Shown here: in pieces, positions 114 through 14,083 of the stretch
Layout of the letters: the number at the start of each line of letters is the position of its first letter
Numbering within the stretch: position 1 is the stretch's first letter
Origin: Clostridia bacterium
Lineage (GTDB): Bacteria; Bacillota; Clostridia; Oscillospirales; Acutalibacteraceae
Reading direction: 5' to 3'
Length of the DNA stretch: 64,000 bases
NCBI GenBank assembly: GCA_024404095.1
Contig: JAKSQO010000003.1
Coordinates: 1-64,000, forward strand
Program-made: the position numbers and the translations under genes
The notes under the pieces: generated by a model
Database searches by the model: none
What the model saw: only the letters and a program-made list of their open reading frames with translations
Told to the model about the DNA's origin: nothing

Positions 114-225
114 AATATACCTCTTGACATTTTTTATTTCTCCTGAAATTTCATATACTATATCACAGGGTCAGAAATTTATCAAGCGCATAGTTCTTCA
201 AAAACTTGTATCTCATAAAACATCA

Positions 226-247
226 GCGGCAGGGTTTCCCCTGCCGC
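226..247 (-). terminator. Terminator of the giant surface-protein gene
   Basis: A perfect 9-bp GC-rich stem (GCGGCAGGG / CCCTGCCGC, loop TTTC) begins 8 bases past the stop codon. On the minus strand it is followed by a short T-run (TGATGTTTTAT). The U-tract is modest. Confidence 0.7.
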
Positions 248-254
248 CTTGCTG

Positions 255-3200
255 TTATTTATTTATAACATATTCGAGTGTGCCTGCGTCATGCCAGCCG
301 TATGCGTCGAGTATTCTTACTGTTGCAATTCTTGTTCCTGTTGAGTGGAACCATACCTTGCCTGTGAATGTAAGTGTTCCGTCCGCGTTTACTGTTGCGC
401 TGTCGGATTTCTTTGTAACTGTTTTGCCCTCTTCGTTCTTGAGCTGTACGCTCATTACGTCAGATCCTGTTACTACTGTAAATCCTACCGGTCCGCTTGC
501 GCCCTCTGTCTTTGCAAGCTCTGCGCTTACAAGTCCTGAGTCTGCCTTTACATACTCATTTGTGAAGTTATAAGCAAGCTCCTTGTCTTCCCATACCTTT
601 GAGCCGCTTTCCTTTACTCTTACTCCGATATTTCCCTCTGCAAGAGTTGACTTAACTGTCCAGATTTCATATGCCAGATCCTTGCTTGTGCTGCTTACTA
701 CATTGCCCTGTGCATCGTAGCTTACTATTGTCACTCTGTCATCGTATCTGTCATATGATCTTGTTCCGTTGCCCTTATCGAGCTCAATGAACTGAACCAT
801 ATTCGCTCTGTCTTCAACCTTTACATTGTATGTATTGGTTATTCCGACTGTCGGTACATACTGAACATCTACTACCTTGCCCTTTGCAGGTTCTGCGCTT
901 GCGTCGTAAAGATTGATTTCAAATCCGTTGAGGCTGAATGTATATATTCCTCCTGCGTATTCGTCATCCTCTACTGTAAGAAGAAGATTTCCTTCTGCAT
1001 CTGTCTTTACGGTTGCAGTTGTCTTGTTAGTAGCGCGGTCATTAACAGTAATTGTGTAGCTCTTATTCGGCTCACCTGTATTCAGAAGAACCGTGTTGCC
1101 TGTTGTTCTGTAAACATTATCAACAAGTGTTGAGTGTTCGTCTGTCAGAATTGTGAAGCCTGAAGCATTGATGCTTGCTGTATCAATTCCGCTTCCGCCG
1201 GTTTCTGAAAGCAACGCTGATCCTGCTGAAGCTGTCTCTACATACACCTTATCCGGATCTATTCCTTCTATCTTAAAGACTTCTTCAAATACATTACCCC
1301 ATCTGTCGATAATATGAACATACGCATATGAGTTACTTTGCGGATAAAAATTCGGTGCCCATCCGTCTGAGCCTGACCACGAATGATAGCCTAAACCTTC
1401 TGTCGGGCTGCTCAATTTTTTACTGAAAGCATTTGTGAACTGTACAAGATTATTGAAGTTTTCCTTAATAAACGCATGAATATCCCCGAGATCAGTGCTC
1501 TTAATTTGACACTTCGAATTATTGTTCGAAGAACCTACATTAAAGATATAGAAGAAAGAACAGAAGTTGTAATTCTTTTCAGCATTTGGATCAGTATCAT
1601 ATTCCGAATCTTCTATTGCATAAAGATTTATCGGTTTTGCATAGTTCTTATCTGCGTTATGGTTGTCTCTATCATCAACACTTGATTTATCCCAACCGTG
1701 GATTTCCCAGTTGTTTGCTCCACCTGATGTTCTCCAAAGGTGATACTGATTGAGTTTTTGGTCATATTCTGTTCCATTATCCCACTGTGAAGCTGTTACA
1801 CTAAATCCGTTTGCAGGCTTATAGCTGATAATAATCGTTATCTCGTTGGATGATGCATCTGCCATATCAACAGCATTGGTACCGTTTACAAGGTCATTAC
1901 CGCTCTTAAGGGCTGATTTCTTAGCCATTGTTTCGTTAAGACTGTCGTCATGAGCCTTGAACTTATATACAGCTTCTTCTCTTATCGCTGAAAGCTGAGG
2001 GCTAAGTGTGATGACAGCTTTTTTATTATAACTGTGATTTATTCCGATACCATTATCAGTATAAGCTTCATACTGTGTGTTTGTAATTTCTTTATTTTCT
2101 ACTTTTGCAGATTCTGTTTTGTCACTATAAGTTATTACTGTTGATTCAAGTGTAGCTGTTGTCGGATAGCATACTCGTCCTTCTCTTTCGGCAATATCAT
2201 CAACTGATATAACAACTTTCGGTTTGTTAACATTAGTATACATATAGTAGGTATGTGAACCTGCATCTGCTAATACAAAGTTTACGCCTTTACTGTTGCT
2301 TGAATCAAAGATATTATCCTTATTCGCTTGCGATAACGCCGCCGTTGTTTCATATACCTCAAATGTCGGTGTTGCGTTGACCTGCGTTTTATTGGCATAT
2401 GCTTTAGCCATTGCTGCAACCTCAGCATTCAAAAGTTCCTGTGCATTGCCACTCTTTGTTTTTCCATCAGCAGAATTAAACTCAAAATTATTTGCTGCTT
2501 TGAGATTACTGTTTATGATAGCAGAAGCATCCTTTTTAGCATACAGAGCACTATTCAAGTCGCCTGTTGCATAATGGTTCAGGTTCATATCTTCAAGCTT
2601 ATTGCCGGTTGTTTTGCTTCCGTTTTTATCAATAACAGTAAAGTTATTGAAATAATTACTGTGGAGAGGCTCAAGTGAATTGCCAAGAGATTTCGCAGAA
2701 CTGATAATTCCGTTTTCTCCGTTAACCGCATTTTTGAGATTTGATACAGTTTCTGCCGTAACAGCACTAATAGCCTTTTTCGCATTTACATATGCAGTTC
2801 TTGCACTATCATAAGCGCTCCAAGACAATCCTGTGTACTGCGTTGTACCGCTTGACGCCTGATTAGCTACCCATTCATTTTTATCGGTGTCAAAACGTAT
2901 ACCGTCAACAACCTGAATTGTCGGATTATTCTCAGGATAACTATTTTTTGCATTTTCTGCGTCAGTTACATCATACCATACCGCATAGAGGGTCTTTGTT
3001 TTGTTTGATGTCTTTTTTGCATCCATGTACCAGCTGTTAATTGTATCCTTGCTAACATTGCCATTTGGATAGAACTCTGCAACAGTTGCGTTAGGAGCTG
3101 TACTCCAACCTATAAACAGTTTGTTTGCGTTTGTATTGTTTTTGGGTATTGCGCTGCTGATAACGCCGTCAGCTGTTGCTGTTGTCGCCTTATCATAGAT

Positions 3201-6200
3201 AAGTGTCCATGATGATGCACCAGACGGATTAGTCGGCATATTTCTTATATCACCAGTAGTATTTGGGTCGTAAATAAGACTAAATGTTTCCGCTGTCCAT
3301 GTTGCTGTAAGCGTAACAGTAACATTATCATCTGCTGTAAGATTTTTGAAATAAACATCTCCTGTTTCGCCGTTAAAGCATACTGTTGAAGAATTGCTTA
3401 TTCCATTTTCGGGGCTATCCGTCGCACCCCATTTTGCGGTTTTATTATTGAGATTGTCTGTAACCTTCCAGCCAGTAAAGATATAACCTGTTCTCGTAGG
3501 AGCAGAAACCTTGAATACAGTATCATAAGTTGCATTTCCAGGGTGATTTGTTCCAAAAGTACCGTACGCAAGATCATATTCTATATTATAAGTATTAGTT
3601 TTCCACTTTGCAAAGAGTGAATAATTCTTTGCTTCTGCGGTTGTAGTACGTACTATCTGTGTACCCGAACCATTAGGCCCCGTGTACCAGTTCTCGAAGG
3701 TATAGCCTGTTCGTGTGGGTTTACGTGCAGTATCAAAACCGCTTACGATATTATTGAACGTATTACCTGACGAGTAAGTAAATGTATCCTCACGTGTTGT
3801 ATACGTTGCCGGATAGTTTACGTTGCCATAATATGAGGTTTCATTGTATGGGCCATTATTGGGTACAACACGAATGTTTTTAAACTCACATGTGTCACCG
3901 CCATAGTTGACATCGAAACGAACTGCTACATATTTACAGTTTGCAGGAGTTGTAGTTGTTGATGATGCAGTAACCCACTCCGAATTACTTGTGCCACAGC
4001 TTGCCCATTCTCCATTTGGATTTATGATTTTTAAATCCTTATCAAAGAAGAAAAGAAGCATATCAGCAACATATTCATCTCCACTGGTCGATGCTTTGGC
4101 AGTACGTCTGTAGTCAAACATAAATTTTATAGACGTGTTTGCCGGGATTTCCATATAGTACAGATTCGGACTATATATGTTTGTTTCGTATTCGGTATAC
4201 GCTTCTTTGTTAGGTTCCTTTTTGTTTTCAAGTCTAAATGAACCGTTTCCAAGATCTGTCAAACTTCCCTCTGATGAAGATCCATGGAAGGCAAATGAAC
4301 CGATAATTCTTTTACTTGGTTCACTTTTGCTTCGATGCCATCCCTCGTAAGAGAAGTAATTATCATATGAAACAGAATATGTGTTATTTTCCCAATGTGC
4401 GTACAAATAGAGGTTAGGACAAGTTGTATCATAACCCTTACCCTGTTGTTTTGCAAGGAATGCAACAGAAATCATATCACCCGGGAGAACCGCTGCATTT
4501 GTTCCGGTACCATATAAATTATATGAATCAGATTTTGCACCCCATGCTGCCAAACGGTATCCTTCATTTGTGTAGGGTAAATCCAGTTTACCGCGTGTTG
4601 TAATCGTATCCTCAGATGACAATGTACCGATAGGCTCATTCTTAGTCGGACTTCCTCCGTTGGATACATAGTAGACATTATAGGTAAGAGCCGTCCATTT
4701 GGCTGTATAGGTTACTGCTGTTGTATTTACCCAATTAGCCGTTTTGCCATGTTTAATGGGCTCTCCAACCCCCTCTTTTAACCAGCCATCAAATTTATAG
4801 CCCTCTCTTGTAGGAGCAGCAATAGCACTTCCGCCGTTTGCTACTGCACCGACAGTAAACGGAGAATCATATGTAGCGATATTTGCATATGTCTTTTCTA
4901 CGGTTTGACCGTTGAATGTACCGCCATTTGGATCATATGTTACGTCATACTTATTGGGTGTGTAATAGAATGTCCAGCCAATGTTGCTTGAACATACATT
5001 TTTGATGCTATCTTCTGTTGCACCAACTTCTTCTATTTTTATGTTTGTAAATGTCGTTGTTGCGTTTGGTGTTGTATTACCAAATCTAAACGAAATAAAA
5101 TTACAGTTGCCAGTAGTGGTGAATGTTATACTCTGATCTCCTAAACCATAATTTCCTCGATAAGGATCGGTTCTTCCCTGTTCAGGATTCGCATATGATG
5201 AGGATATATCCTTCAGCATAAACTCATAAACCTGAGCCGTAGTACCTGATGCAGTATAAGAGAGCTTATACGTTGTATTTGCCTTAACAGGTAAAAAATA
5301 CAAATTTGATGCCGTTGGCATTGATGTATAGTTATCTATGGCAGGGTTACCATTGCTATCCGTACTTGTACTCTTGAATGTGAGCGATTTATTTGTATCG
5401 TTCCAAGTAACGCTTGAAACATTTTTACCTGTTTTTGAACCTTCAGCTTTCATAAATGCTTCGCCGTCAAAATTACGTTCAAAATGATCAAATGTGTAAC
5501 CTGTATATTCATTCGATCCTGCTGAAACAGTATCACCGTAAGTATAGGTTTCTGTTTCTGCGGGATTTTCAAGAACTTTAGCATTAACAGTAGATATGTG
5601 ATTTGCCGTTGCTGTGCTTGTTTCCTTTTCAAGGCCACTTGCCGTAGTGTTAATATTTGTTTTCGCACTGTCAATTTGAGCCTGTGTTACGTCAATAGAA
5701 CCAAGTTTTAAATATGCATCTTTAATTGCATTGATGTAACTGTTCCAAGTATTTGACTTATAGTAATCAGACTGCTTACCTGTCGAAATCTCTTCGTTAA
5801 GAATTCGACGAAGCTCCGCTTTGTTAACTTGAACAACTTCACAGGCAGTAAATGACGTTGCTGTCTTTTTGTTTTCTTTCGTATTAGTAGCTTCTGCTTT
5901 GACGAAGAATGACTTTACATTACCAACATTTACATTTTTAATATCTCCAGTTTTCTGTCCGGTTTCACTAACACTATAAGATGATGCGATAGAGCTATTT
6001 GCAGCAGCTGCTGTTAATGAGCTAACTCCCGAGTTGTTCCATTCATAGTCAGACATAATACATGAAGCGTTACAATTTGAGGAGCCACCGCCTGAGCTAA
6101 AGTATGCCTTAACCGTCAAATTAGGCATATTAAACTTTGTATATCTTGAGTTATCAACTACCAGATAACCGATACCACCTGTACCGGTTTCACTATGTGA

Positions 6201-8582
6201 TTCTTTCTTGTCCACGTGTCCTGCATAGTGCATTGATGTCGTCATTGAAGTGCTTCTCTTAGGACAATCATGCTCATGTGGGCGCCACGAAACATTTGTC
6301 GTCGGATAAAGTATAGGATAACCTGTTGCTGCTCCGTCAACTGAGAAACCACCTGCATATGAGCCTGATGATGACCAGTATCCAATATCACTATCAGAAC
6401 TCTTTGCACCTATAGTAGGAATATAATAGGTTAAGCCAGCCTTTGTAAGAAGGGTTGACTCAAATGAAGTGCGGATACCTGTAATACCATAAATTACAGC
6501 AAAAGAACTGTTGTAATATGCCGTATTTTGATAGCTCTTACTCTGTGAGTTTGTCGCACCTGTTGAAGAATCAAGGCAGGGTGCATAAACAATCGAATAT
6601 GCTTTTGTAGAGTAAGATACACTATTGATAACATATGTTGCAGTCCACTCAATCTGTGTTGTAGTGTTCTGTGAAATTGCAGTTAAAAGTGTGCCTGCAG
6701 TGATAGTTGAAGCAAGGGAGCTCGTATCTGACGATTTACTAAGTGTAACCGATGCACCAGAAGTACAAGCAACACTGACACTTGTTGCACCGGGAACATT
6801 AAGATAAACATTACCAGTTGTATTCTCACCTGTTCTGAGTGCACCGTTGTCGGCATTTTCACGATCAACATAATACTGAAACTCTTTCATATTACCGGTT
6901 GAGGGCTTAAGATAAATAACTTCTGGAACATAGAAAGTAAGAACATAAGATGTATTTGAACTTACTATTTTTTTCTGTTTTGCCGCAATAGTATCTTTTG
7001 AAATTGAAACAGTATCTGTTGTTGCTGTGGGGTCGCAAAGAATAAGAGCCTGTGTTTTCATACTACTGTAATAAGAACTGAAGCTTGAATCATTCACTCT
7101 GTCGATGTTTGACTTCAAACCTTCACAATATGCCTGACGGATGGCATCCTTATCAACAACAGTTGTATGAAGACCAACACCAAAATAAAGGTTTACCCAT
7201 CTTTCAATGCCAAGATAGCCGTCCCAGTTCTGCCTGTACTTAAATTGTATTGATACACCTTTGCTTTTTTCCGGAATTGCACCGTTGAGAGAGTAAAGAC
7301 CCCATGTTCGTGCATTGTCAGAACCCGCACCATTCTTATAATCTGAACGGTCAACAGATGCAGTAATGCCCTGCGCTGTCTCATAGTTTGAGTCATATGC
7401 CTGAATGTAGTCAAGGTATGCGTTACCTCCACCGACATCAAAATAATAACGAATGTAACCTACACTCAGATTAGGAATCTGACTATAGTCGGTGAAACGT
7501 GACTTATCAACAACCATGTACGCTACGCCGGTTAAGTATGTATTGCCACTTACACCGCCGTCTTCTACATCATTATGGTTAGTACCTGATGGTCTCATAT
7601 TGGTATATGAACCGTAATCAGTATAATTTGTTCGGAAATAGAAATTATCAGACTTTTCATCAATCCTATTTGGGCAAACAAGCACTGTCCTCGGTGTTGT
7701 TTCCGGAAAATGTTTTGTGTCTCTATAGTCTTCAGAAGGAATAGTATAACTTGAGCCATCATTTGCCTGACCAATAAAACGTATAAGTGGAGCAGTATAA
7801 GCACCTGATGTGTTTGTATAACTATGTGATCTGTTACCAACTGCTGCATAATCCATAGCACCAGTGATAAAACCGAAGCCATCTGATTTAGTGTTATTTA
7901 AAGTACCATCGTGTAGTGCATAACCCGATACACCTGTGAGCTGGAGGCGGGGTTTGTAGATACCTGTATACATAAACTCCAAGCGAGTTGAGCCGTTAAC
8001 TACGTATGCAACTACCCACTCAATGATGTAAACATCACCCTCGATTGCACCTGTAAGCGTTGAGTTTGCGTCTATTGTTACATTGATTGAGTTTGTGCCG
8101 CTTGCAAGTACTGTGCCAGATGAAACAGCTGTTGCTGTGCTTGCCGCTTTAGCCGCTGCGATGTTTTGACCATTGGAGATTCCGTTACCCACAAGCTTAA
8201 GTTTTGAAGTTGCAACTTCCTCATAGCTATAGCTCGATTTGCTTGTTCTGTGCCAGAGATTGTTAACATAAAGCTTAACATCTGTTGCATCAGGATTGGA
8301 AAATGTTACAGCACCTGATTCAGCCTTCGAGTTTCCAGCTTTACCGCTTTCAACGTCAATCACGCTGAAATACTCGAAGTTATCTGCGCCCGGTTTAAGA
8401 TAAATTGTTTCCGGGGCATTGGCACGCTGTGCTGCTATTGATGAACCCATTGTATTGGCATCAACGTCAACCCATGCCTTAGAATCAATCTTTAAAATTG
8501 ACGGGTCAAAAATAAAGAATGTGGTTATGAGCATGGCAAGGCACAGTACCATACTCAACGTACGTTTGAGAATTTTTTTCAT
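255..8582 (-). CDS. Giant secreted multi-module surface protein (2,775 aa) with InlB-type repeats and FIVAR-like segments
   Basis: Probable adhesin or cell-surface matrix protein. Residues 1-36 are a signal peptide (two lysines, hydrophobic stretch). Two related modules follow, about residues 57-470 and 552-930. Both open with a PE-x-IYLKP strand, share a VVD-(K/N)-SR segment near residues 358 and 808, and end in a helical FIVAR-like stretch (about 476-542 and 930-990). Roughly residues 1200-1870 carry about five InlB/Listeria-Bacteroides-type repeats (YDPNGG, PTREGY-x-F-x-GW, AKW), interrupted by two beta-rich jelly-roll-like insertions that end in TFTNIKIEE and CEFKNIRVV. A clearer FIVAR domain lies near 1900-1970, then Ig-like repeats run to the C-terminus. 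No LPXTG sortase signal or C-terminal membrane anchor is visible, so attachment is unknown. The ribosome site AAGGAGG (8591-8597) fixes the start. Function is inferred from architecture only. Confidence 0.85.
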   Translation of the reverse strand: MKKILKRTLSMVLCLAMLITTFFIFDPSILKIDSKAWVDVDANTMGSSIAAQRANAPETIYLKPGADNFEYFSVIDVESGKAGNSKAESGAVTFSNPDATDVKLYVNNLWHRTSKSSYSYEEVATSKLKLVGNGISNGQNIAAAKAASTATAVSSGTVLASGTNSINVTIDANSTLTGAIEGDVYIIEWVVAYVVNGSTRLEFMYTGIYKPRLQLTGVSGYALHDGTLNNTKSDGFGFITGAMDYAAVGNRSHSYTNTSGAYTAPLIRFIGQANDGSSYTIPSEDYRDTKHFPETTPRTVLVCPNRIDEKSDNFYFRTNYTDYGSYTNMRPSGTNHNDVEDGGVSGNTYLTGVAYMVVDKSRFTDYSQIPNLSVGYIRYYFDVGGGNAYLDYIQAYDSNYETAQGITASVDRSDYKNGAGSDNARTWGLYSLNGAIPEKSKGVSIQFKYRQNWDGYLGIERWVNLYFGVGLHTTVVDKDAIRQAYCEGLKSNIDRVNDSSFSSYYSSMKTQALILCDPTATTDTVSISKDTIAAKQKKIVSSNTSYVLTFYVPEVIYLKPSTGNMKEFQYYVDRENADNGALRTGENTTGNVYLNVPGATSVSVACTSGASVTLSKSSDTSSLASTITAGTLLTAISQNTTTQIEWTATYVINSVSYSTKAYSIVYAPCLDSSTGATNSQSKSYQNTAYYNSSFAVIYGITGIRTSFESTLLTKAGLTYYIPTIGAKSSDSDIGYWSSSGSYAGGFSVDGAATGYPILYPTTNVSWRPHEHDCPKRSTSMTTSMHYAGHVDKKESHSETGTGGIGYLVVDNSRYTKFNMPNLTVKAYFSSGGGSSNCNASCIMSDYEWNNSGVSSLTAAAANSSIASSYSVSETGQKTGDIKNVNVGNVKSFFVKAEATNTKENKKTATSFTACEVVQVNKAELRRILNEEISTGKQSDYYKSNTWNSYINAIKDAYLKLGSIDVTQAQIDSAKTNINTTASGLEKETSTATANHISTVNAKVLENPAETETYTYGDTVSAGSNEYTGYTFDHFERNFDGEAFMKAEGSKTGKNVSSVTWNDTNKSLTFKSTSTDSNGNPAIDNYTSMPTASNLYFLPVKANTTYKLSYTASGTTAQVYEFMLKDISSSYANPEQGRTDPYRGNYGLGDQSITFTTTGNCNFISFRFGNTTPNATTTFTNIKIEEVGATEDSIKNVCSSNIGWTFYYTPNKYDVTYDPNGGTFNGQTVEKTYANIATYDSPFTVGAVANGGSAIAAPTREGYKFDGWLKEGVGEPIKHGKTANWVNTTAVTYTAKWTALTYNVYYVSNGGSPTKNEPIGTLSSEDTITTRGKLDLPYTNEGYRLAAWGAKSDSYNLYGTGTNAAVLPGDMISVAFLAKQQGKGYDTTCPNLYLYAHWENNTYSVSYDNYFSYEGWHRSKSEPSKRIIGSFAFHGSSSEGSLTDLGNGSFRLENKKEPNKEAYTEYETNIYSPNLYYMEIPANTSIKFMFDYRRTAKASTSGDEYVADMLLFFFDKDLKIINPNGEWASCGTSNSEWVTASSTTTTPANCKYVAVRFDVNYGGDTCEFKNIRVVPNNGPYNETSYYGNVNYPATYTTREDTFTYSSGNTFNNIVSGFDTARKPTRTGYTFENWYTGPNGSGTQIVRTTTAEAKNYSLFAKWKTNTYNIEYDLAYGTFGTNHPGNATYDTVFKVSAPTRTGYIFTGWKVTDNLNNKTAKWGATDSPENGISNSSTVCFNGETGDVYFKNLTADDNVTVTLTATWTAETFSLIYDPNTTGDIRNMPTNPSGASSWTLIYDKATTATADGVISSAIPKNNTNANKLFIGWSTAPNATVAEFYPNGNVSKDTINSWYMDAKKTSNKTKTLYAVWYDVTDAENAKNSYPENNPTIQVVDGIRFDTDKNEWVANQASSGTTQYTGLSWSAYDSARTAYVNAKKAISAVTAETVSNLKNAVNGENGIISSAKSLGNSLEPLHSNYFNNFTVIDKNGSKTTGNKLEDMNLNHYATGDLNSALYAKKDASAIINSNLKAANNFEFNSADGKTKSGNAQELLNAEVAAMAKAYANKTQVNATPTFEVYETTAALSQANKDNIFDSSNSKGVNFVLADAGSHTYYMYTNVNKPKVVISVDDIAEREGRVCYPTTATLESTVITYSDKTESAKVENKEITNTQYEAYTDNGIGINHSYNKKAVITLSPQLSAIREEAVYKFKAHDDSLNETMAKKSALKSGNDLVNGTNAVDMADASSNEITIIISYKPANGFSVTASQWDNGTEYDQKLNQYHLWRTSGGANNWEIHGWDKSSVDDRDNHNADKNYAKPINLYAIEDSEYDTDPNAEKNYNFCSFFYIFNVGSSNNNSKCQIKSTDLGDIHAFIKENFNNLVQFTNAFSKKLSSPTEGLGYHSWSGSDGWAPNFYPQSNSYAYVHIIDRWGNVFEEVFKIEGIDPDKVYVETASAGSALLSETGGSGIDTASINASGFTILTDEHSTLVDNVYRTTGNTVLLNTGEPNKSYTITVNDRATNKTTATVKTDAEGNLLLTVEDDEYAGGIYTFSLNGFEINLYDASAEPAKGKVVDVQYVPTVGITNTYNVKVEDRANMVQFIELDKGNGTRSYDRYDDRVTIVSYDAQGNVVSSTSKDLAYEIWTVKSTLAEGNIGVRVKESGSKVWEDKELAYNFTNEYVKADSGLVSAELAKTEGASGPVGFTVVTGSDVMSVQLKNEEGKTVTKKSDSATVNADGTLTFTGKVWFHSTGTRIATVRILDAYGWHDAGTLEYVINK

Positions 8583-8833
8583 AAAAATTTCCTCCTTATT
8601 CTTTAATCTATATGTAATTACATGAAACGGAATAACCCGGTTTTCATATATATGCCGAAACGGAATTTTTAAAATGCTTACACCATACTAACCAATAATA
8701 TTTTAAATCAATCAGTTTTTCTGTTTCAGATAATAGAATTGAGCATTATCTAATTCATTCCACATCTTGTTCAAATTTCCATAAAAACTATTCGTTTGCA
8801 ACAAATAATATGTATTATTATCCATATTATTAT
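8583..8833 (-). other. Long AT-rich 5' leader of the giant surface-protein gene
   Basis: About 250 bases separate the predicted transcription start from the ATG. It contains two copies of ATTCCGTTTC (plus-strand positions 8624-8633 and 8657-8666) and a small stem of AGATAAT/ATTATCT. I could not match it to a known riboswitch or leader. No gene is seen here. Confidence 0.4.
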
Positions 8834-8963: not shown

Positions 8964-10400
8964 TTATTTACCTGAAATTCCCGCAAAAAACGGAACTTTT
9001 ATATCATACTTTTTCTTAAGGTCACTGCGAACTCCGATGTTATTAAAAATCGAATAAACTCCACCAAGGAATCTTACAATATTATTTATCGGGTTGAATG
9101 TCCTTTTCGGATGACCGCCCTGCTGTGTTGTTTTTGAAATAGTAAATTCGTTAAACGGAGTGCTCTCACCGTCATAATAGCTCTTAATCACAATCGAATT
9201 TTCTGAGAAATCAAGAACATTGTAAATTACGTTTTCTGTATCTACATACTTTCCGATATGCTCGCCGACAGGCGGTATTTCTCCGTCATCAAGCGAACGA
9301 GGTCTGTTGATTGAACCCGAAACCATGTAAATGCTGCCCTTCGCATCGGTAACCTCGTTGATGTCCGCAATCGGTGTCACCGTCTTCTTGTTATACACAA
9401 CATTCGACATTGTGTAGTAATGGCTGTGTCCCATAAGCACAAGGTCGATAGCAAATTCATCAATAAGGGGCATCCACAAAAGTCGAATAAGCTTGTTCTC
9501 ACTCTCTCGGTGAGGAATACGTGAGCCGAGAAGGTCGTGGTGGAACATCGCAACCCTCCATTTCACGTCAGGATTCGCTTTAATTGCATTCTTAATAAAT
9601 CTGCGATGATACACACCGTCCGCATTGTTTGAATCGCAAACGAGGAACAGCGTATCACCCTTGACAAACCAATAGTCACCGCCGATATAACTCTTTATTC
9701 CCTTATCGTTTGTCTCAGGATTCGCATTGAAATATCTGTAATCAATATTTTTTCTGTCATGGTTTCCTTCAAGAATCGCTACTGTTGTATTCTTTGCATC
9801 AGCCGAAGAAACATATCCGCAGTATTCGTCTCTTCTGCCAAGTGACGCCTGATCGCCTGTTGAAAGAATAAGAGAAATGTCGCTCTTTTCTTTAGCCTGT
9901 GAAATTACAGAAGCAAATTTTCCTGAATTATTCTTTATGCTGTCCTTGTTTTCTTCATCATAACTGATGTGAACATCTGTTACATAGAGCGCTGAAAATT
10001 CGCTTCTCGTTGAAGTTGTAATGCTGTAAACAGCCGATTTATAACCATCAGAATTACAGGTGTAATAATATGTAGTGCCTTCCTTAAGAGAGGTGATATG
10101 TGCCTCGGCAGAATAGTCACCCTGCGGAGTTGCAGTCACATTTGCAGTAATCTGTTGTGCTTTTGACATATCCTTGCTTTCACTCAGCAGTACATAATTT
10201 CTATCTTTTGAATCCGTGTACCATCTGATTGTTCTTTCGCTTTCGGTCTGTCCGGGCGCAACATACACACCCTTTTCAATATCTGTACTGTTAGATTGCC
10301 AATATGCGTTCCAGCTGTCCTGAGCAAAAGCCACACCTGTGCAGCTGAATGCAATTACAATACAAAGAAATACAGATAAAGCTCTTTTCATATTTCTCAT
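8964..10400 (-). CDS. Secreted calcineurin-like metallophosphoesterase with N-terminal Fn3-like domain
   Basis: Predicted exported phosphoesterase of the purple-acid-phosphatase-like type. Residues 1-26 form a signal peptide ending VAFAQ. Residues 45-130 look like the fibronectin-III-like domain seen before the catalytic domain in this family (ERTIRWYTDS, GTTYYYTC). Metal-binding motifs are intact: D-V-H at 142-144, GD at 182-183, GNHD at 212-215, HH at 287-288 and GHSH at 324-327. The substrate is unknown; phosphate release from organic phosphates is the usual role. A GGAGGA site precedes the ATG. The gene has its own promoter and terminator, so it is probably monocistronic. Confidence 0.9.
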   Translation of the reverse strand: MRNMKRALSVFLCIVIAFSCTGVAFAQDSWNAYWQSNSTDIEKGVYVAPGQTESERTIRWYTDSKDRNYVLLSESKDMSKAQQITANVTATPQGDYSAEAHITSLKEGTTYYYTCNSDGYKSAVYSITTSTRSEFSALYVTDVHISYDEENKDSIKNNSGKFASVISQAKEKSDISLILSTGDQASLGRRDEYCGYVSSADAKNTTVAILEGNHDRKNIDYRYFNANPETNDKGIKSYIGGDYWFVKGDTLFLVCDSNNADGVYHRRFIKNAIKANPDVKWRVAMFHHDLLGSRIPHRESENKLIRLLWMPLIDEFAIDLVLMGHSHYYTMSNVVYNKKTVTPIADINEVTDAKGSIYMVSGSINRPRSLDDGEIPPVGEHIGKYVDTENVIYNVLDFSENSIVIKSYYDGESTPFNEFTISKTTQQGGHPKRTFNPINNIVRFLGGVYSIFNNIGVRSDLKKKYDIKVPFFAGISGK

Positions 10401-10513: not shown

Positions 10514-13500
10514 TTATTTGTTAACAATATCTGAGAAAGCAATCTGATGATCCGCACGTGCTGAAGGTGCCTGATCGATCGTTGTCTTCATGATACCTGC
10601 GTTAATTACAGCGTTAGCATCCTTTGTTGAAAGTGTTTCGTCACAGTCAACGTCACCAGCAAACTTAATATAAGCATTGCTTGTATTTGTGCTGAGAAGA
10701 CGAGATGCATAACATCTGAGGATAACAGCATCTGTACCATCTATAAGTCCATCACCGTTAACGTCACCGAAGAAGATAACTGTGTATTCACGTTCTGTAA
10801 TAAATACGCCGTCACCGTCAAGGTCTGAACGAAGAAGAACCTTAGCGCCTGTACCGTTACCATTGCTTGTCGGAACGATATCCATTCTTGTGCAGCCGTT
10901 TGTAGCATAAGCCATAAGCCACTGATCCATATATGTTACGAAATCACCGAAATCTTCTTCGTCAAGCTCTGTGTAAAGAGCTTCTTCGAAGCCGTAAAGG
11001 TAAGAATTAACCTCATCCTTAAGGAAGTATGTCTCGTTAGGATCATAGTAATCAATAACAGGAATTGTTACAAGTGCATTGTAGGCCTTGTTAAGTCTTT
11101 CTGTTACACCGTCAACGATTGCCTGGCTGTCAGCGTCGTACCAAACCTGACGAACAAACTTAAGTGCTTCATTATATGTTTCAACAACATTCTGAACTGA
11201 CTTATCTGTGAATACTGCAGGGCTGTCAAGGAAAACAAGGTTATCAATAGCAGCGATAAGTGCTGAGTAATCAGCATCACCAAGACCAGCATTGAGCTTC
11301 AGTCCTCTGATTGCATCACGAAGTTCGCTTCTTGCTGTGTTAACCTTTGACTGCGGATAGTCACCAAGTGTTCCGCGATCCTTGTACTGGTTATATTCGT
11401 TTACAACCTTAGTTGCAAAGTTATATGCCTTAACGTATGCATCCCATGATCTGTTTGTATAAAGCTGATCGCCGTTACCGTCAACATTAGATGTGATTCT
11501 GGGATTATTGTTTATGATTCTGAGAAGATAGAAATCATTTGCTGCAGGCTGGTTTGCAAGAAGCCAGTCATCATAAACGTGCTGGAGATAGTAGTACGCA
11601 TATGTGATATCTGCACGCTTAACTGATTCGCCGTTATCAAACTGTTCAATAAGCTTTGCCGCATCACCGAGAGCGCCCTTGAAATCTTTGTATGTCCATG
11701 GGTCGAAGTCAACTGTATGACAGAATGTGTAGCCATCCTCGTAATACTCGATGCCTTCGTTGTCAGGAATCTTAAGCTCGTTATAAAGAGTCTTAAGCTG
11801 ATTCATGCTGTAAGAACCTGTGAATGTATTTGCAAACTGTCTTTTGATATATCCGAACTGATCAAGGTCAATAATTCCGACAAGCTCGCAGATAAGGTCA
11901 AGTGATTCAGCTGCAACTGCACCGCTCTGAGTAATGTTCGGAAGGCTCTTCATGAGCATTCTTACTGTATTCTTAAGACCTGTGTTTGCAAGTGAGCCGC
12001 CTGAGTTCTTTGTCTGAAGAATCTGGTCAAGAGTTGTGTAGTCATAAGGAACAATAAGTCTATTAAGCTGGAAGTCGTTTGTGCTCTGGTTAGCCTTTTC
12101 AACAGGGAGCTTAAACACGCCATTGAGGATTCTTGCAAGGAGGTTGCTGAGAACCTTTGAAAGCGGCTTGTTAAGATCTGAGTCTGAACGACGACCGATA
12201 ATACCAAGAAGACCGTTGATATCGAAGTTAAGAACATTACCGATAATGCTGTCCATAAAGAGGTTCTGCATACCGTACCAGCTGTCCTCAACACCGTAGA
12301 AGATGTTTGTAAGAGGAATCCACTGATTTGCAGACATATAAAGCTTGTACCAGGGGTTGTTTGCATATGTCTGTCTGTCGCTTGCATTCGGATACATTGA
12401 GAACAATGTAACATACTTTCCGAGGAATGTTTCGAAGCAGTCATTAAGAAGTTCTACAAAAGAAGGAGTAAGATTGCTTGACTCGAAGGTAGTCTGACCA
12501 ACAAGATAATAGTTAAGAACAGCAGCTGCAACATCAAGACACTGATCTGAATCAGGATCAAGAGCACCCTGATCAATCATCTTCTGGAAGTCAGCATTTT
12601 CGCTGTGAACAAGTTCTTCACAAACATTGATAAGTGTGTATGTAGCAAGTTCCTTGATTGTATCGCAGTTGTCGGGGAAGTAAACACCGTCAACAAATGC
12701 TTCAAGAAGCATCTTTGCAAGGAAAGCGAAGAGCTCCTCGTCACCCATTGTTTCAATAGCTGCTTCCTGCTCTGCTGTAAGAGGAGTAAAGTCAGAAGTA
12801 AATGACGGAAGCATAGGAACTACCATTCGGATAAGGTCTGAGAACATACCTGCAAAGAGGTCTGTAAGCTGGAGGTGTGAACCCATAGCTGTAGGCTCAA
12901 ACCAGATATACTTCTTAAGTCCAACCTTGATGATGTACTCAAGAGCAACATTGAGCTTGTCAATGGGCTTCGGTCTCTCAGGATTCTCTACACCCTTCCA
13001 GCGAAGGAATTCTTCTACTACATTAACGTCATCCTCAGGTGTATCTGCACTGACTACGCCTGCTTCAACGAGAGTATTGTAATCAACGAAAAGGTTGATA
13101 GCAACATCAAAGTATGAAGTCTCTGTTGCATCGTAATCATCAGGAGCAACCTTGAGAAGTTCGAGTATAAGTGAACCTGCGAAAGGAATAACGATATCAT
13201 CAACAAGTGCGTTAACTGTATTGATAATGAAATCGTATGTAGAAGTGCTTGTAAGGCTTATGTCGCTTGCATTAAGTGAAGGAAGGATAGAAAGAAGACC
13301 CATCTGATTTGTAATCTTACCCTCTTCATCTCTTTCGATAGGAATACTCATAAAGTCAGCTACTGTTGCAACTGTTTCCTCATCGAGAAGGTTGAATACA
13401 AATGTAAGAACTCGGTCGTTAAGGAAGGTCTGAACCATATTGTCAAGATTATAGCTGTCAGCTGCACCCTCAACATAGCCTGTATCCTGACCGTCATTCA

Positions 13501-14083
13501 TGAGAAGCTTATAAACCATATCACAGACGTATCCATGAACATTCTTGAGCATAGGAACTTCTTCATAAAGATCAAACCAACGGTTAATAAAACCTAATGA
13601 AAATGATCCGTCAAAAATACCTGCAAGAACATCTGCGTTGTCATCAAGTGAAAGGCAGTTACAGATAACCATAAACAGCTGGAAATCAGAAAGATTTGCA
13701 TTTCTACGTCTGTTAGAGCTGTTGCGGAGTGCCTTAACATTAAGCTTTTCGATATCACCAAGGTTAAGGACACCTGAAGCGAGACCGTAGAGCGTACTGC
13801 TCATAACTTCGTCAAGTGTATCGCAAAGAGTATCAAATGAAGAAATATTGATATCGATGCCTACGATTGACTCATGGATATCCATGGGAGCAAATACTTC
13901 ATCATCAAGCATATCAAGCAAAGCAGTAGCTGCCTGATCGTTGGTGAAGTAAGGAGTAAGGATAGAGTCATATCCTGCCGGCTCCTCATAGCTGGTCTTG
14001 TACGCACTGACACCGATGGTGAAAGTTGAAAGAATCAACAGCATCGACAACAGAACGGACAAAAGTCGTTTAGATTGTTTCAT
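10514..14083 (-). CDS. Large secreted dockerin-containing protein (1,189 aa)
   Basis: Exported protein with a signal peptide (residues 1-27, ending GVSA). The C-terminus holds a type-I-like dockerin: two calcium-binding loops starting near residues 1107 (DVNGDGLIDGTDAV) and 1144 (DVDCDETLSTKDAN), each followed by a helix. A dockerin normally plugs into a cohesin on a scaffold, so this protein may join a cellulosome-like or other cohesin complex. FIVAR-like helical repeats cover about residues 870-1030 (NRSWDAYVKAY; ARSELRDAI). The remaining 850 residues are mostly helical, acidic and leucine-rich, with no glycosidase, esterase or peptidase motif that I recognise. The second dockerin loop is less canonical. 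No cohesin is seen in this window. The start is supported by a GGAGG site. Confidence 0.85.
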   Translation of the reverse strand: MKQSKRLLSVLLSMLLILSTFTIGVSAYKTSYEEPAGYDSILTPYFTNDQAATALLDMLDDEVFAPMDIHESIVGIDINISSFDTLCDTLDEVMSSTLYGLASGVLNLGDIEKLNVKALRNSSNRRRNANLSDFQLFMVICNCLSLDDNADVLAGIFDGSFSLGFINRWFDLYEEVPMLKNVHGYVCDMVYKLLMNDGQDTGYVEGAADSYNLDNMVQTFLNDRVLTFVFNLLDEETVATVADFMSIPIERDEEGKITNQMGLLSILPSLNASDISLTSTSTYDFIINTVNALVDDIVIPFAGSLILELLKVAPDDYDATETSYFDVAINLFVDYNTLVEAGVVSADTPEDDVNVVEEFLRWKGVENPERPKPIDKLNVALEYIIKVGLKKYIWFEPTAMGSHLQLTDLFAGMFSDLIRMVVPMLPSFTSDFTPLTAEQEAAIETMGDEELFAFLAKMLLEAFVDGVYFPDNCDTIKELATYTLINVCEELVHSENADFQKMIDQGALDPDSDQCLDVAAAVLNYYLVGQTTFESSNLTPSFVELLNDCFETFLGKYVTLFSMYPNASDRQTYANNPWYKLYMSANQWIPLTNIFYGVEDSWYGMQNLFMDSIIGNVLNFDINGLLGIIGRRSDSDLNKPLSKVLSNLLARILNGVFKLPVEKANQSTNDFQLNRLIVPYDYTTLDQILQTKNSGGSLANTGLKNTVRMLMKSLPNITQSGAVAAESLDLICELVGIIDLDQFGYIKRQFANTFTGSYSMNQLKTLYNELKIPDNEGIEYYEDGYTFCHTVDFDPWTYKDFKGALGDAAKLIEQFDNGESVKRADITYAYYYLQHVYDDWLLANQPAANDFYLLRIINNNPRITSNVDGNGDQLYTNRSWDAYVKAYNFATKVVNEYNQYKDRGTLGDYPQSKVNTARSELRDAIRGLKLNAGLGDADYSALIAAIDNLVFLDSPAVFTDKSVQNVVETYNEALKFVRQVWYDADSQAIVDGVTERLNKAYNALVTIPVIDYYDPNETYFLKDEVNSYLYGFEEALYTELDEEDFGDFVTYMDQWLMAYATNGCTRMDIVPTSNGNGTGAKVLLRSDLDGDGVFITEREYTVIFFGDVNGDGLIDGTDAVILRCYASRLLSTNTSNAYIKFAGDVDCDETLSTKDANAVINAGIMKTTIDQAPSARADHQIAFSDIVNK

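Follow-up and report, generated by a model that had tools for sequence, protein, structure and literature searches.

Surface display in uncultured clostridia of the fibre gut is mostly deduced from sortase, SLH or dockerin signals. Several described systems come close to the protein reported here. In Ruminococcus flavefaciens, the scaffoldin ScaE, with one cohesin and an LPXTG anchor, holds the cellulosome on the cell (PMC5301203); anchoring scaffoldins of this type belong to organisms with many dockerins and combine an N-terminal cohesin with C-terminal surface attachment. A survey of anchoring scaffoldins covers SLH, LPXTG, LysM, a C-terminal TM helix and Cu-amine-oxidase-like domains (PMC11557425). 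CWB2 (PMC4973711) and SLH are non-covalent wall anchors, each a common module on unrelated surface proteins of one genome. The type IX secretion CTD of Bacteroidota (e.g., that of PorU) is Ig-like, strictly C-terminal and found on unrelated exported proteins. Finally, export, very great length and repeated beta domains characterise the giant surface proteins of Apilactobacillus kunkeei and SiiE-type Ig-repeat adhesins (PMC12863079). The protein described below resembles the latter in these respects, although no sequence relation to them was found and both its head and its tail are undescribed. Its C-terminal domain (CTD) differs from that of type IX secretion in occurring in a monoderm, in its length of about 215 aa with two predicted sandwiches, and in that neither sequence similarity nor machinery was found. 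Unlike CWB2 and SLH, to whose Pfam families it shows no match, it is predicted to have a double Ig-like fold and always stands last. Where ScaE-type scaffoldins use LPXTG and sortase (PMC5301203), cohesin proteins of the genus studied here have an Ig-like CTD, whereas the giant protein itself is devoid of a cohesin.

The window analysed is a 64,000-nt stretch of the genome of a herbivore-gut clostridial bacterium. It contains, at 255..8582 (-), a gene with an intact ATG-to-stop frame for a giant protein of 2775 aa. One more complete paralogue (L007, 2615 aa) lies 92 kb away in the same genome. The features of the gene were as follows:

8475..8582 (-): signal peptide region, residues 1-36 (MKKILKRTLSMVLC...), with a hydrophobic N-terminus, almost unchanged in the L007 paralogue
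8516..8656 (-): 5' block spanning leader, start and signal peptide, DNA 87% identical to the L007 paralogue
7011..8429 (-): N-terminal module 1, residues 52-524, beta-sandwiches and helices
5805..6941 (-): N-terminal module 2, residues 548-926, homologue of module 1
5631..5822 (-): FIVAR-like helical segment, residues 921-984 (E 0.0025, 18.8 bits, cut-off 29.2)
2943..5630 (-): InlB/List_Bact repeat stalk with two insertions, residues 985-1880 (PF09479, four stretches)
2403..2945 (-): helical-looking linker, residues 1880-2060, with no convincing Pfam match
903..2402 (-): conserved pre-C-terminal region, residues 2061-2560, common to giant proteins of other species
258..902 (-): CTD, residues 2561-2775, two predicted Ig-like sandwiches
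217..902 (unstranded): 686-bp block spanning the CTD, its stop codon and the next 38 bp, 100% identical in the distant paralogue (92 kb)

The product would be a Sec-exported surface protein composed of a duplicated beta-rich head, an InlB/FIVAR stalk, the pre-C region and a C-terminal double-Ig domain. Based on its sequence, we give a probability of about 0.5 to its being a giant surface adhesin or matrix protein retained at the C-terminus through the CTD, which behaves as a cassette; an adhesin or matrix role is in itself plausible.

A first-pass annotation of this DNA had recognised two related modules in the N-terminal head, and these proved to be full-length homologues (residues about 52-524 and 548-926). 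In the self-alignment that had been proposed as a check, module 1 against module 2 gave a local score of 132, far above the shuffled sequences (mean 46.8, SD 7.6, maximum 85 of 500; z 11), so the similarity is significant; other parts of the 2775-aa protein scored only 36-55. The BLASTP E value was 1e-7 with 23% identity, and profiles of the first and second modules built from several species aligned over their full length (384 columns, hhalign probability 99.9, E 6e-31). The first-module profile also retrieved second modules from relatives in other species, from which we conclude that the duplication is old and has been conserved. Both motifs pointed out earlier, PE-x-IYLKP and VVD-(K/N)-SR, are kept in both modules. 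The FIVAR-like helical closure attributed to each of them stood in part: helices follow both modules in the AlphaFold2 model, and a FIVAR match was found at the second module only, with a score below the cut-off. The view that the head resembles no recognised domain was also upheld, as neither stretch had a Pfam, NCBIfam or PDB sequence match and a PDB sequence search with the head profile retrieved nothing. The AlphaFold2 model of residues 46-985 showed beta-sandwiches followed by helices (a helical bundle), of fair quality for module 1, where many blocks reach pLDDT 70-90, and poor for module 2. Fold searches with it (Foldseek, VIA) returned only generic tandem Ig, cadherin, macroglobulin and pilin matches with Z at most 6.8; no specific fold was assigned to the head, given generic matches at Z under 7 and the poor model of module 2. 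The profile searches and structure predictions suggested at the outset thus gave a head undescribed in sequence databases, with generic Ig-type fold matches only. These results indicated that the duplicated head is a real, undescribed module, and it defines an undescribed family of giant adhesin-like proteins in many genera. Probably it is the outward, ligand-binding end of the protein, and we infer for it an adhesive role.

The exported nature of the protein and its InlB stalk were corroborated by the N-terminal signal sequence and by List_Bact repeats (PF09479; 46.9 bits, cut-off 27, E 3e-12, four stretches). Apart from these InlB-type repeats, Pfam recognised in the whole protein only one sub-threshold FIVAR (PF07554, 18.8 bits at residues 921-984, curated cut-off 29.2), a cut-off that is passed in CTD relatives such as L042. 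Two insertions in the InlB repeats had been described as jelly-roll-like; they are indeed present (about 1040-1195 and 1400-1580), and the fold found no confirmation, since they matched neither a Pfam family nor each other. As stated earlier, there is no sortase signal: the last 60 residues contain no LPXTG, a C-terminal hydrophobic segment is absent, and the CTD is the very end of the protein, which thereby falls outside the sortase-anchored surface proteins. Pfam detected neither dockerin (PF00404) nor cohesin in it, so that it does not show the cohesin plus wall-interacting domain of an anchoring scaffoldin. The CTD and the conserved pre-C region of about 500 residues were absent from the earlier reading, and the CTD is the only concrete lead on how the giant protein is anchored.

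The gene that precedes it on the same strand (8964-10400, -) codes for an exported protein with Metallophos and purple acid phosphatase N-domain (Pfam), and the giant paralogue is likewise preceded on its strand by a gene for an exported protein (L007, 11318-12991, -) judged metallophosphoesterase-like from sequence. Two genes away from the giant gene, 10514-14083 (-) encodes an exported 1189-aa protein with a type I dockerin at the C-terminus and no other Pfam domain.

Matches to the 215 residues of the CTD (2561-2775) stand at the C-termini of many large ORFs whose sequences are otherwise unrelated. Profile searches detected it in 18/18 genomes of the genus, with 2-11 matches each, part of them fragments. 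In a sample of 394 genomes of the order, five had any match, and strong ones occurred only in this genus and one sister genus. Among 40 distinct strong CTDs, the distance to the stop codon is zero in 26, at most one residue in 33 and at most nine in all 40; each is the single strong copy in its protein, and an LPXTG-like motif follows it in 0/40. The CTD proteins with full-length ORFs open with a hydrophobic signal-like segment. Their other domains include rhamnogalacturonan lyase PL11, subtilase, CotH, BspA-type LRR, VWA, FIVAR, InlB repeats and a cohesin-like domain with FIVAR; assignment of partners to ZmpB, LnbX and similar NCBIfam families was rejected, the scores being far below cut-offs and due to common repeats only. 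Beside an LRR-like fragment, L098 (G000:C10) has a degenerate CTD remnant at 1834-2046, probably a decayed CTD gene. Conserved features of the CTD include TRTYDRY and AYExW, and seven positions are fully invariant among 29 diverse copies, including two Trp and the aromatic YExW motif. AlphaFold2, run with an alignment of only three sequences, predicted two Ig-like sandwiches of seven strands each, with pLDDT of about 67-87 in the second. Fold matches were generic (SiiE, whose Ig domains rank third, transglutaminase, KIR and PorU CTD among them). A PDB sequence search with the CTD profile gave no match, nor did secretion-tail NCBIfam profiles match the CTD in 24 CTD proteins at E 0.01; residues 2561-2775 had no credible match to SLH, CWB2 or other known wall-binding Pfam families even at E 5. 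Weak Pfam matches to beta-propellers, RHS and FlgD_ig were attributed to chance. Being undescribed, always terminal and present on many unrelated exported proteins, the CTD is a candidate for a new means of holding proteins at the surface. Such a domain outside the sortase, SLH and dockerin classes would expose a hidden set of surface proteins in each genome.

Comparison of the window gene with its paralogue in L007 revealed that nucleotides 217-902 are identical, in flanks that are 72% (300 bp upstream) and 53% (150 bp downstream) identical. As this 686-bp block is close to where a contig of the draft assembly ends, it could be a mis-resolved repeat, against which speak the frame, which stays open, and the like pattern in other genomes. 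In a quartet of genes from G014 and G009, the first 600 residues are 64-73% identical between orthologues and 23-24% between paralogues, whereas the CTDs are 85-90% identical between paralogues of one genome versus 78-81% between orthologues. In other same-genome pairs, CTD DNA is 71-82% identical and the unrelated upstream DNA only 41-50%. A tree of 40 CTDs grouped them by genome, with 24 changes versus 29.3 after shuffling (0/200 shuffles as low). The leader and signal peptide are also kept between the two paralogues of the window genome. These comparisons showed that the CTD moves as a DNA cassette, with independent conversions in two more genomes (G009, G014). Recombination keeps the copies alike within one genome, and the genus reuses the cassette on exported proteins that are otherwise unrelated, among them cohesin-like ones in which it occupies the place of a scaffoldin's wall anchor.

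Cohesins are present in the genomes of this genus, together with 15-32 dockerin matches and two or more sortases each. A family of 580-640-aa proteins (L091, L092, L093, L099; similar ones in L096 and L097) consists of a signal peptide, a cohesin (28.1 bits in L091, cut-off 24.1) and a divergent CTD-like end, and its genes in L093, L096 and L097 adjoin a dockerin-ending gene. A second, conserved family of 1190-1430 aa combines a cohesin-like N-domain, FIVAR repeats and the CTD, and is encoded directly downstream of a cohesin-dockerin gene; its N-domain aligned with the first cohesin group (A9 vs A10) with hhalign probability 96% and E 3.5e-9, and its best PDB matches, although weak, were scaffoldins, ScaE among them. 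Judged by sequence, the CTD occupies in these proteins the spot of the known scaffoldin anchors while matching none of those listed. It would be a possible new way of keeping cohesin-dockerin complexes on cells, and the giant protein would belong to a lineage-specific set for surface display, in which cohesin-CTD proteins take a position like that of anchoring scaffoldins. The order cohesin-dockerin gene, then cohesin-like/FIVAR/CTD gene, is kept in L042 (3237-8662) and in orthologues in L048, L054, L059, L104 and L109. In L094 (G000:C15, 3726-8508), two sortase-like genes lie close to the gene for an exported cohesin-dockerin protein and may amount to a covalent anchoring system in the same genome.

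Because of its terminal position and the variety of its partners, surface retention by the CTD is favoured over other explanations. Most likely, the CTD would hold the giant protein at the cell surface non-covalently and independently of sortase, through a lineage-specific partner, and its copies would be uniform in each genome because all of them must fit one common receptor. That the CTD is in general a new lineage-specific domain for surface retention or sorting in monoderm gut bacteria, displaying adhesins, proteases, lyases and cohesins, is a tentative proposal with somewhat less than even odds. The sortases and dockerins of the genus count against surface retention by the CTD, as they provide other anchors, and so do the facts that tandem Ig-like domains are often mere spacers and that some giant head relatives have another C-terminal end. 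An inert Ig-like domain without a dedicated partner, acting as a spacer or stability cap and dispersed by recombination, would agree with the generic fold and with the divergent CTD copies found as tandem repeats near the C-terminus in L062-L065; the seven invariant positions, the presence in all genomes of the genus and an exchange restricted to the CTD make it unlikely.

It is also doubtful that the proteins are secreted freely, with the CTD as a module binding plant polysaccharide, mucin or another protein and its terminal position due to history only. The carbohydrate-active enzymes among the partners, the frequent binding of ligands by Ig-like folds and the lack of an anchor motif after the CTD speak for it, but binding modules are usually found internally or N-terminally as well, whereas the CTD was terminal in 40/40 cases across unrelated architectures and is also carried by cohesin, protease and LRR proteins. 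A signal for export or sorting by a dedicated machine, perhaps removed and working as in type IX secretion but in a monoderm, would explain why a domain of about 200 aa stands strictly at the end of many unrelated cargo proteins. The PorU CTD (6za2) and the second Ig-like domain can be superposed (Z 8.5, 3.0 A over 89 residues), but this score is tied with many unrelated Ig folds, the CTD matches no NCBIfam model and no partner machine was identified, so we regard this explanation as quite improbable. Surface retention through a common binding partner, the reading preferred here, would account for the within-genome uniformity of the CTD.

Single-sequence searches with the head found relatives in 11/60 related genomes from three genera, and profile searches in 26 of 300 sampled genomes of the family (14/135 genera), in ORFs of up to 4966 codons. 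Giant proteins bearing the head thus occur in at least 14 genera of this family. The named relatives, titled Ruminococcaceae, Oscillospiraceae or Clostridia bacterium, are MAGs obtained from horse faeces, roe deer colon, goat rumen and further sources of rumen type, in line with the gut Firmicute origin proposed by the first-pass annotation. In the window genome, two further paralogues (L008, L009) run off contig ends, and not all CTDs or truncated paralogues there were read over their full length, the copies on C16 and C56 being cut by contig ends. Some giant head relatives have, in place of the CTD, a dockerin (L067, L068, L078; by sequence) or divergent Ig repeats (L062-L065); in L067, L068 and L078, a segment like the second module stands alone in 1760-1840-aa proteins with the dockerin-like end. 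No relatives were found in viral contigs, in phage records (CTD query) or in plasmid records (module-1 query), so nothing points to a phage or plasmid source. The giant homologue in L085 is split by a frameshift over overlapping frames (2883-5333 and 5302-8370), which could represent a pseudogene, an assembly error or phase variation. In three species (L082, L086, L088), ParA/ParB-like genes adjoin the head-bearing giant gene upstream, in two of them together with an apparent mnmE-gidA-gidB set, suggesting a conserved position near the chromosome origin.
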